Of a stretch of 64,000 nt of DNA, positions 23,517 to 40,338 are shown in pieces (position 1 is the first letter of the stretch; each line of letters starts with the position of its first letter). This stretch comes from Thermoplasmata archaeon. GTDB taxonomy: Archaea; Thermoplasmatota; Thermoplasmata; Lutacidiplasmatales; UBA184. Position numbers and translations under genes: made by a program. The notes beneath the pieces were generated by a model that did not search any database, was not told the origin of the DNA, and saw nothing but the letters and a program-made list of their open reading frames with translations. The stretch is taken from NCBI GenBank assembly GCA_022750115.1, contig JAKIWI010000002.1, forward strand, positions 173,221 to 237,220, in the 5' to 3' direction.

Positions 23517-23622
23517 GGTCCACCGAGCCCATCGAAGCTCATACCTGTTGTCCGCGGCCCCCGGAGTTCTCCAACAACGTGCGAAAGCCTCAAAGAGCGA
23601 TTCCGGTAGGGAGCCCGAGGCT

Positions 23623-23727
23623 GCTCCCGTAGTCTAGTGGTCAAGGATAGAGGCCTCTCGAGCCTCTGACGCGGGTTCAAATCGGCGCGGCGACCAACGC
23701 CGTCCGGCGAAACTCCCGCCGGGAGCA
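23623..23727 (+). tRNA. tRNA-Glu (CTC) with a 32-nt intron in the T loop
   Basis: All arms can be folded. The acceptor is 23623-23629 with 23720-23726 (seven pairs). The D stem is 23632-23635 with 23645-23648. The anticodon stem is 23650-23654 with 23662-23666, and the loop 23655-23661 holds anticodon CTC (23657-23659). The T stem is 23671-23675 with 23715-23719, and the discriminator is A23727. The T loop reads TTCAAA up to 23681 and then is interrupted; removing 32 nt (23682-23713) restores the normal loop TTCAAAT and a perfect 73-nt tRNA. CCA is not encoded (ACC then T). The D loop AGTGGTCAAGG is normal for Glu. No intron is present in the anticodon loop. Confidence 0.9.
23682..23713 (+). 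other. Non-canonical tRNA intron, position 59/60
   Basis: The 32-nt insert folds as an archaeal bulge-helix-bulge site. The exon T stem forms one helix. A central helix pairs TTC (23676-23678) with GAA (23709-23711), with an A-C mismatch as fourth pair. The 3-nt bulges are AAT (23680-23682) and ACT (23712-23714), and cleavage after the second nucleotide of each gives exact exons. The intron itself forms a hairpin: CGGCG (23688-23692) with CGCCG (23698-23702), loop ACCAA, extended by CGG (23683-23685) with CCG (23704-23706). A T at both borders makes the exact cut ambiguous by 1 nt. Confidence 0.8.
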
Positions 23728-38752: not shown

Positions 38753-39280
38753 ATGACGGACACCGAGCTCGCGAAGGACCTGTTCGACTCCGGGGCGGTC
38801 CAGTTCGGGACGTTCACGCTCACCAGCGGCCAGACCTCGGACGTGTACATCGACGTGAAGCGCGCCGCCACCGACCCGGCGCGACTGCGGAGGATCGCCG
38901 AACGCCTCGCCCGCCACATGGGCGATGCGGAACGGCTGGCGGGGATGGAATTGGGGGCGGTGCCGCTCGTCGTCGCCCTGGCGCTCGAGGTCGGCCGCCC
39001 GTACGCCATCGTCCGGAAATCGACCCGAACCCACGGGACCGGGCGACGCATCGAAGGCGACATCCCGGTGGGGTCGCGCGTGCTGATCGTCGAGGACGTG
39101 ACCACGACCGGCGGCTCCGTCGTCGAGACCGTCGGGCTCCTCCGCGACGCCGGCGCCCGCGTGGACCGCGTGGTCTGCGTCGTCGACCGTCAGCAGGGGG
39201 CGGCCGACAAGCTCACGGCGGTCGGCGTGCGACTCGAGCCGCTGACCACCCTCGCGGAGCTGCGAGGCGCTCACACGTGA
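38753..39280 (+). CDS. pyrE: Orotate phosphoribosyltransferase
   Basis: It makes OMP from orotate and PRPP in pyrimidine synthesis. The 175-residue protein has the PRPP-binding motif VLIVEDVTTTGGS near residues 103-115, the early TSGQTSDVYIDVK element typical of OPRT, and YAIVRKSTRTHGTGRRIEG. Normal length for the archaeal form. It ends in a GTGA overlap with endA. Confidence 0.93.
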   Translation: MTDTELAKDLFDSGAVQFGTFTLTSGQTSDVYIDVKRAATDPARLRRIAERLARHMGDAERLAGMELGAVPLVVALALEVGRPYAIVRKSTRTHGTGRRIEGDIPVGSRVLIVEDVTTTGGSVVETVGLLRDAGARVDRVVCVVDRQQGAADKLTAVGVRLEPLTTLAELRGAHT

Positions 39281-40338
39281 GCGCCCGGCTCGGCCGGGAC
39301 GCCACGGCCCGCATCGAGGAAGCGTCCTACGCCGGCACGATCTACGGCCGCGGCTACTTCGGAACTCCCGACGCGAGCGGACTCTCCCTCGACCGCTACG
39401 AAACGGTCTACCTCACCGAGATGGCCCGCCTCGAGCTCGTCGACGGGCGGGAGCGCGCGGTGCTCTGGCCCGCGCTGTTCCGCCGGGCGGTCCGCTCCGA
39501 GCGCGGTTTCGGTGTCCGCTACATCGTCTACCGCGACCTCCGACAGCGGGGCTACGTCGTCCGGCGCTCTCCGCCCCCGACGTCGTTCGCGGTGCTTCCG
39601 CGCGGCGGCGTCCTGAACAAGACTCCGGCGAAGTACTGGGTCACCGCGTACTCCGAGCGGCAGCCGTTCGACCTCGCCGAGCTGACCGGACTCGCGGAGC
39701 GCGCCCACGGCGCGAAGAAATCGCTCCTCGTCGCCGTCGTCGACGAGGAGTCGGACCTGACGTACTACCGCACGCGGCGCTCCGCCCCCGTCGGCTCCCA
39801 CCCCTCGCAACCCCTCGCGACGGCCGCGGTCGGCTGGCTCGCGGAGGACCGCGTCGTCGTGTTCGAGGCCACGGCGGTGGCCGCGCTCGGCCAGGGGCTC
39901 GCCCACGGCAGCCGGATCGGCGAGCGACTCGAGCTCTCCATCCTGGAGGCGATGCACCTCGTCGAAACCGGTCAGCTCACGATCCGCGACGCGCGCGGCG
40001 GCCGGGCCGTCGCGCCGGAGGCGTTCCGCCGCCGCGCGGAGCGGCTCGAAAGCGGGTTCGGAGAACGCCTCGCGGCCTACCGGGCCCTCCGCGGCCGAGC
40101 GCTCGTCGTGAAAACGGGGTTCAAGTACGGCGCGCACCTGCGCGCCTACCCGCGCAACCCCGAGACGGTGCACGCCCGCTACCTCGTGCGCGCTGTGCCG
40201 GAGACGTATCGTGCTCCCTGGCCCGAGGTCGCCGGCGCGGTCCGGGTCGCTCAGGGAGTTCGCAAGGACCTGCTGCTCGCTGGGGTGGCCGCCGATGCGT
40301 CGGTGCGTTTCCTCGGCCTCGAGCGGGTACGTCCGTAG
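39277..40338 (+). CDS. endA: tRNA-splicing endonuclease, fused two-repeat form
   Basis: It cuts bulge-helix-bulge introns. The 353-residue protein is a tandem fusion. The N-terminal half (about 1-170) resembles an endonuclease subunit without a catalytic triad. The C-terminal half has the catalytic domain with VVKTGFKYGAHLRAY (Tyr291), VHARYLVRAV (His299) and GVRKDLLLAG (Lys330); the His-Lys distance of 31 matches known enzymes. Two-repeat proteins act as homodimers (the alpha-2 type). Co-translated after pyrE by a GTGA overlap. The tRNA-Glu gene in this window has an intron outside the anticodon loop, an unusual target for this type. Confidence 0.92.
   Translation: MSARLGRDATARIEEASYAGTIYGRGYFGTPDASGLSLDRYETVYLTEMARLELVDGRERAVLWPALFRRAVRSERGFGVRYIVYRDLRQRGYVVRRSPPPTSFAVLPRGGVLNKTPAKYWVTAYSERQPFDLAELTGLAERAHGAKKSLLVAVVDEESDLTYYRTRRSAPVGSHPSQPLATAAVGWLAEDRVVVFEATAVAALGQGLAHGSRIGERLELSILEAMHLVETGQLTIRDARGGRAVAPEAFRRRAERLESGFGERLAAYRALRGRALVVKTGFKYGAHLRAYPRNPETVHARYLVRAVPETYRAPWPEVAGAVRVAQGVRKDLLLAGVAADASVRFLGLERVRP

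Follow-up and report, generated by a model that had tools for sequence, protein, structure and literature searches.

T-loop introns at position 59/60 in tRNA genes of Thermoplasmatota and their probable processing by a loop-less alpha'2 endonuclease

We describe a tRNA-Glu(CTC) gene of a Thermoplasmata archaeon that is split in its T loop by an insert of 32 nt. The insert is very probably a bulge-helix-bulge (BHB) intron at position 59/60 of a working gene and would be spliced by way of an alpha'2 endonuclease; no other tRNA-Glu(CTC) gene was found in the genome. With somewhat less confidence, we consider it probable that introns at this position are long-standing in Thermoplasmatota, that in one genus they have expanded into roughly one in three tRNA genes, and that loop-less alpha'2 enzymes splice them. 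BHB introns are known, as is position 59/60; what is new is the pairing with an enzyme type that is said not to match.

Results

A tRNA-Glu(CTC) gene interrupted in the T loop

The window, that is, the whole stretch of 64,000 nucleotides that was analysed, contains the following features of the gene, all on the forward strand.

23582 to 23597, + strand: promoter-like stretch CGAAAGCCTCAAAGAG, at about -41 to -26 from tRNA-Glu(CTC); BRE/TATA-like, putative function
23623 to 23727, + strand: tRNA-Glu(CTC) gene, 105 nt, split by a 32-nt insert at 59/60
23623 to 23681, + strand: exon 1, tRNA positions 1-59 (59 nt), ending in TTCAAA
23657 to 23659, + strand: anticodon CTC, within exon 1
23623 to 23629 with 23720 to 23726, + strand: acceptor stem, GCTCCCG with CGGGAGC; A73 is 23727
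23671 to 23675 with 23715 to 23719, + strand: T stem, GCGGG with CCCGC, which is the outer helix (h) of the BHB; invariant, paired in 29 of 29 copies
23676 to 23681, 23682 to 23713 and 23714, + strand: T loop, made up of TTCAAA, then 32 nt, then T60
23676 to 23678, + strand: T54, T55 and C56, 5' strand of the central helix (H), pairing with GAA at 23709 to 23711
23679, + strand: A57, opposite C 23708, a mismatch in the window copy
23680 to 23682, + strand: bulge 1, A58, A59 and U (intron base 1), AAT; 5' cut predicted at 23681/23682 from the archaeal BHB rule
23682 to 23713, + strand: intron, 32 nt, with the inner hairpin (h') at about 23683 to 23707
23712 to 23714, + strand: bulge 2, A, C and U60, ACT; 3' cut predicted at 23713/23714
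23714 to 23727, + strand: exon 2, positions 60-73 (14 nt): T60, 3' strands of the T stem and acceptor stem, A73

The coordinates given in a preliminary description of this gene were exact on re-reading, and deletion of the 32 nt from a T loop broken after TTCAAA does yield, as it claimed, a 73-nt tRNA-Glu(CTC) with a normal cloverleaf. The BHB that it drew held in part: the two 3-nt bulges, AAT and ACT, and the inner hairpin, which shows covariation, were retained, but the central helix is weaker than drawn. In the window copy this helix has 3 bp (TTC/GAA) plus A57 opposite C, and the inner helix consists of one pair followed by a mismatch. Upstream, the motif CGAAAGCCTCAAAGAG was seen by eye at equal distance in 12 of the 17 same-genus upstream stretches printed.

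Gene finders mishandle this gene, as had been foreseen. ARAGORN in bacterial mode called a tRNA-Glu(ctc) at 23624-23695, with a wrong 3' end that lies inside the intron; Rfam at its gathering threshold reported no family in the whole 64-kb window; and the RF00005 score of the gene is 24.7 bits, against a cut-off of 29. A second, intact tRNA-Glu(CTC), the case named beforehand as evidence for a pseudogene, was absent from the 40 candidates returned by RF00005 in this genome, which is 90.39% complete. The one other tRNA-Glu among these candidates (L015) has the anticodon TTC.

In the precursor, the T stem would act as the outer helix, and U54-U55-C56 would pair with the GAA that lies shortly before the intron's 3' end. 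The remaining intron bases would form the inner hairpin, and the cut sites would lie in the two 3-nt bulges, AAU and ACU. The single alpha'2 endonuclease found in the genome would cut each bulge between nucleotides 2 and 3; ligation of the exons by RtcB would then restore a normal seven-base T loop, UUCAAAU. We infer transcription, cutting, joining, the exact cut sites and the responsible enzyme from the known archaeal pathway. According to PMC8707768, the alpha'2 enzyme from Ferroplasma, in the same phylum, excises a BHB intron embedded in a hairpin whose stem has six pairs and whose loop has seven bases; in our comparison the T arm resembles this substrate.

Introns in other tRNA genes of the genome

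We read the 40 candidates found with RF00005 at E <= 10 together with the matches of R1, a model for which 11 of the genome's own 14 T-loop-intron genes served as input. This gave 43 tRNA genes in the 90%-complete genome, 23 without and 20 with an intron. An intron at 59/60 is present in 14 of the 43: Glu-CTC, Asn-GTT, Gly-TCC, Arg-TCT, Ala-GGC, Gln-CTG, Asp-GTC, Arg-TCG, Ser-GCT, Ser-GGA, Ser-CGA, His-GTG, Lys-TTT and Leu-TAG. The genes for Asp, Asn and His, each found in a single copy, are thus all of the T-loop-intron kind. The helices are paired in 11 of the T-loop-intron genes. R1 scored 13 of these genes at 71.9 bits or more and the best intronless gene at 64.4; Leu-TAG, which has a second insertion, scored 51.1. 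The Rfam tRNA model left 8 of the 14 below its cut-off or missed them, besides others that it scored as truncated.

Introns also occur elsewhere in these tRNAs. D-arm insertions of about 25-35 nt were seen by eye in initiator Met (L085), Arg-GCG (L091), Leu-TAG (L237) and Lys-TTT (L238), the last two of which combine a D-arm insertion and a T-loop intron in one gene. Anticodon-loop introns, also identified by eye, are found in Met (L020), Tyr, Leu-TAA and Trp (L020, L021 and L026 are among these loci). The tRNA-Trp intron (L090) is long and contains a box-C-like GATGACGA; from what is known of other archaea, we presume a box C/D role as a candidate only. The total comes to 22 introns in 43 genes, or 0.51 per gene: 14 at 59/60, 4 in the D loop and 4 in the anticodon loop, the last two counts being by eye. 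PMC8450103 reports 0.21 introns per tRNA gene across the archaeal genomes that it covers; for Thermoproteales its figure is 0.84.

The interiors of the 14 T-loop introns were compared with one another. The best local score was 15, for Ser-GCT against Ser-GGA. Of 500 letter shuffles, 3 attained this score and 1 attained the mean local score; the maximum in a run of 200 shuffles was 16. We draw no conclusion about copying of introns between isotypes, for which this similarity is a weak hint, as letter shuffles do not keep hairpins.

Conservation of the tRNA-Glu intron across the genus

Using the 105-nt gene as a BLAST query, we searched 61 genomes: its own, 36 of the same genus, 3 of the same order and 21 of the same class. 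The exon-intron-exon arrangement is in place in 31 of the 36 same-genus genomes (full or nearly full length, two of them read individually). The five genomes lacking such a match, G014, G015, G016, G023 and G034, are 57-81% complete. We aligned 29 copies, the window's own and 28 others, leaving out the copy in G012 (L038), which is cut at its 5' end. Mean pairwise identity is 98.9% in the exons and 55.4% in the introns. Only three exon columns vary: two form a single anticodon-stem pair, A-T in 24 copies and G-C in 5, and the third results in a G-T pair in 3 copies.

The inner hairpin of the intron is maintained while its letters change. Compensatory changes occur at all 8 of 8 pairs of the inner helix h'. 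With h, H and h' placed on the T arm and intron, pairing is seen in 95.3% of cells; shuffled alignments give 84.1%, and structures slid along the alignment give 34.7-62.5%. RNAalifold predicted h and h' from the same 29 copies and left the 3-bp central helix unpaired; variation in that helix is limited to U-A to U-G, at 2 of its 3 pairs, and one Glu copy of 30 (L059) breaks a pair. Genus-wide conservation and covariation thus back the preliminary claim of a 59/60 intron in a tRNA-Glu(CTC) of Thermoplasmatota.

These data bear on the possibility that the gene is a pseudogene, a tRNA broken by a stray insertion while another tRNA reads GAG. A tRNA-Glu(TTC) can read GAG by wobble, so that L015 could cover this codon. 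We nevertheless regard a pseudogene as extremely unlikely, as 29 copies combine almost unchanged exons with an insert that diverges yet keeps a covarying hairpin, the arrangement is common to 31 of 36 genomes, and the design is shared with 13 other tRNA genes, including the sole Asp, Asn and His copies found.

T-loop introns in the genus and the phylum

At E <= 1e-11, R1 had 4-14 matches in each of the 36 same-genus genomes. One locus per genome was read in 29 of them, and all 29 have the intron. Outside the genus we fetched 30 loci in 24 genomes: 24 loci, from 18 of the 24 genomes, exceed 90 nt and every one has a T-loop intron, while the other six measure 73-75 nt. Over the phylum, 53 of 147 genomes have an R1 match, which is not a count of introns, since some matches are 74-75 nt long and intronless. 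A further 26 loci newly fetched from the phylum sample all have the intron, with TTC/GRR pairing in 25.

The matches are unevenly spread over families. Family f19 is absent from the 53 R1-positive genomes, and 14 f19 genomes are listed with 0 matches; family f8 has 1 match in 11 genomes and 0 in 5 listed; family f23, which lies outside the class, has 1-10 matches per genome. Several matches per genome, up to 10, were seen in the f23 genomes G062, G077, G082, G093, G096, G144, G153, G167, G170 and G191, and several in the f41 genomes G100, G103 and G124, which belong to another class than the source genome. T-loop-intron loci were read for ten f23 and two f41 cases. To judge from these sequences, f23 and f41 may be a second and a third lineage with expanded T-loop introns.

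A pattern scan of named genomes returned 103 stretches. Among the 80 listed, 70 have the TTC/GRR pairing and 10 do not; 3 of the 10 resemble normal tRNAs that the pattern happened to pick up. Thermoplasmatota are named in 60 of the 80 listed titles, the others including Woesearchaeota and Nitrosopumilales. In five stretches of Thaumarchaeota type (L094, L098, L113, L130 and L136), the T-loop insertions of tRNA-Glu are only 16-18 nt long and end in GATGAAAA or GATGAAAG.

The tRNA-Glu(CTC) genes of three genomes of the same order differ in layout. One (L074, in G038) is interrupted both in the anticodon loop and in the T loop, where the insertion has only 13 nt, GCTATGTTGAAAA, and is among the shortest seen. 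Two from another family (L075 in G037 and L076 in G039) have a very long anticodon-loop insertion, which in G037 is about 200 nt with several hairpins, the T arm being unbroken. A group I intron or other known RNA was considered for the G037 and G039 insertions and rejected, as no such Rfam family was found at E 0.01; two weak matches of L075 below their gathering scores (plastid ycf2 leader, tmRNA) were taken as chance or tRNA-like sequence.

A common splice-site rule

To describe the splice sites we assembled 101 distinct genes: the 14 of the source genome, 30 Glu and 4 Asp genes of the genus found with BLAST, and 29 genes of the genus and 24 others found with R1. The parser demanded TTC[AG]A in the T loop and left base 60 free. 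The loop reads TTCAAA in 71 genes and TTCGAA in 30, and base 60 is T in all 101, and in 127 of 127 when the second set of 26 is included. T54-C56 pair with intron positions -3 to -5 in 100 of 101 genes, compared with 5, 16, 61 and 24 when the register is slid by -2, -1, +1 and +2; the sets found with R1 are biased towards its own pairs, and in the BLAST-found Glu set by itself the figure is 29 of 30.

Base 57 divides the genes in two. G57 faces C at intron position -6 in 30 of 30 cases, a Watson-Crick fourth pair, so that in these genes the central helix is predicted to be regular, with the 4 bp usual for an archaeal BHB and a 3-nt bulge on either side. Opposite A57 (n = 71) lies G in 61 genes, T in 8, C in 1 and A in 1; in these genes, the window tRNA-Glu(CTC) included, the predicted helix is mostly closed by a mismatch. 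The second set gave G-C 22, G-T 2, A-G 1 and A-T 1. A57 thus lies opposite G far more often than opposite U (61 against 8 of 71), which puts a purine mismatch at the end of the central helix. Beside the bulge, the inner helix begins with 5.6 consecutive pairs on average, where shuffles give 0.8; the window copy has 1.

It has to be considered whether the intron is real but its junction lies at 60/61 or 61/62, because TC is repeated at both of its ends. By eye, all three junctions give an identical mature tRNA in the window copy. Across the 127 genes, however, the first intron base is G in 42, A in 36, T in only 34 and C in 15, whereas T60 is constant, which leaves 59/60 as the sole junction common to all and makes a shifted junction very unlikely. 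A register with the bulge AAA, in which the first intron base pairs with G(-6) (the minimum-energy fold of the window copy), was rejected as not general; of the 61 genes in which A57 faces G, 34 begin the intron with G and 12 with A.

The same comparison speaks against an insert that is retained in a tRNA working with an enlarged T loop. Over the 101 genes the insert varies from 15 to 46 nt and is free in sequence save at its splice ends; moreover, the design fits an endonuclease substrate, and genes for the endonuclease and RtcB are present. We hold retention to be highly improbable and splicing at 59/60 to be the better account of these sites.

The splicing endonuclease

The window also encodes a candidate enzyme:

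39277 to 40338, + strand: predicted tRNA-splicing endonuclease, 353 aa, alpha'2 type, two fused PF01974 domains in one frame

It is the only PF01974 gene found in its own genome, the one genome in which further PF01974 genes were sought. The protein matches the A. fulgidus alpha'2 enzyme 1r0v over most of its length (E 8.6e-23), its best match being 5x89 (E 2.7e-29), and the active-site Y, H and K columns are kept in the C-terminal unit. Judged by its sequence, it is of the alpha'2 type. For joining, one RtcB gene was found (E 1.0e-173, contig C14 of G000).

We looked for a specificity loop with PDB 3p1y as yardstick; from its KPR and from PMC6379350 and PMC12397907, we take this entry to be an A. 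fulgidus EndA into which a Crenarchaea-specific loop (CSL) has been built. Homologues were found in 29 of 29 genomes and in 27 of 30 further ones. None of the 55 that span the site (28 of 28 and 27 of 27) has a CSL/ASL-like insertion behind the YGS-like motif in its catalytic unit; the 29th homologue of the first set, from G051, does not span the loop site and was left out. With this query, G096, G191 and G103 gave no endonuclease match, yet a T-loop intron was read in each. In family f19, the enzymes match over only about 85 C-terminal residues, in open frames of 292-326 codons. This differing match coincides with the family's lack of T-loop-intron matches, a single contrast that proves nothing alone.

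A relaxed enzyme such as (alpha beta)2 or epsilon2 might have been missed in the unassembled tenth of the genome and cut the intron in place of alpha'2. The genome's completeness of 90.39% leaves room for such an enzyme, and 3 of the 30 further genomes with model matches had no endonuclease by this query. Set against this are the alpha'2 homologue in 29 of 29 genomes and the 55 site-spanning homologues without a CSL-like insertion, and we judge a missed enzyme unlikely. A loop-less alpha'2 enzyme could process these introns because, unusual as their position is, the substrate would be a near-strict BHB.

Discussion

The available portions of four reviews (PMC4033280, PMC4090602, PMC6379350 and PMC12397907) associate non-canonical introns with loop-bearing (alpha beta)2 or epsilon2 enzymes and restrict the alpha4 and alpha'2 enzymes of Euryarchaeota to canonical BHB motifs. 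In PMC4033280 (2014), the euryarchaeal alpha4 and alpha2 enzymes are described as cleaving canonical motifs only, and Korarchaeum, whose enzyme bears the loop, as the one archaeon to combine non-canonical introns with an alpha2 enzyme. The portions of PMC6379350 describe the alpha'2 enzymes of A. fulgidus and T. acidophilum as narrow and note that canonical BHB motifs occur in T loops too; those of PMC12397907 link enzyme loops to intron diversity.

Each known system shares part of the present one. The introns of Thermoproteota, as excerpted in PMC4090602, likewise have BHB motifs, include 59/60 on the published list, affect several isotypes per genome and may be double. The source genome differs in belonging to Thermoplasmatota, in having a loop-less alpha'2 enzyme rather than (alpha beta)2 with CSL, in the dominance of 59/60 (14 of 22 introns) and in the weak sharing of intron sequence between isotypes. 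Euryarchaeal 37/38 introns, which are canonical and go with alpha4 or alpha'2 enzymes, are alike in enzyme type and in a BHB, near-strict as drawn here, with two 3-nt bulges, and anticodon-loop introns occur in the source genome too; here, however, the outer helix is the T stem, not the anticodon stem, and the central helix is drawn from the B-box/T-loop TTCRAA. Korarchaeum cryptofilum, in the excerpted PMC4033280, likewise combines a single-gene homodimeric enzyme type with non-canonical introns, but the loop of its enzyme is absent in the source genome. The Asgard Atabeyarchaeia and Freyarchaeia are of another phylum and are also soil archaea with many non-canonical introns; the available part of PMC11291895 reports introns, often non-canonical, in 92-95% of their tRNA genes.

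Full-text searches of openly licensed papers turned up no description of such T-loop introns for Thermoplasmatota, and GtRNAdb may list some. The available text of PMC4153887 and PMC5011839, on Methanomassiliicoccales, mentions no tRNA intron, and the word intron is absent from the main text of PMC9287336, on Lutacidiplasmatales.

The annotated tRNA sets of these genomes may be incomplete, given the errors of Rfam and ARAGORN. We speculate that the intron would hold back T-loop modification and end processing up to the moment of cutting, since an unspliced precursor cannot form the T loop. The many genomes that combine 59/60 introns with a loop-less alpha'2 enzyme offer a natural test, in which the enzyme type is the same, the position is new and the motif is near-strict. 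If our reading is true, any tRNA arm usable as an outer helix can host a near-strict BHB, and the loop rule of endonuclease-intron co-evolution would concern relaxed BHB shapes, not position.
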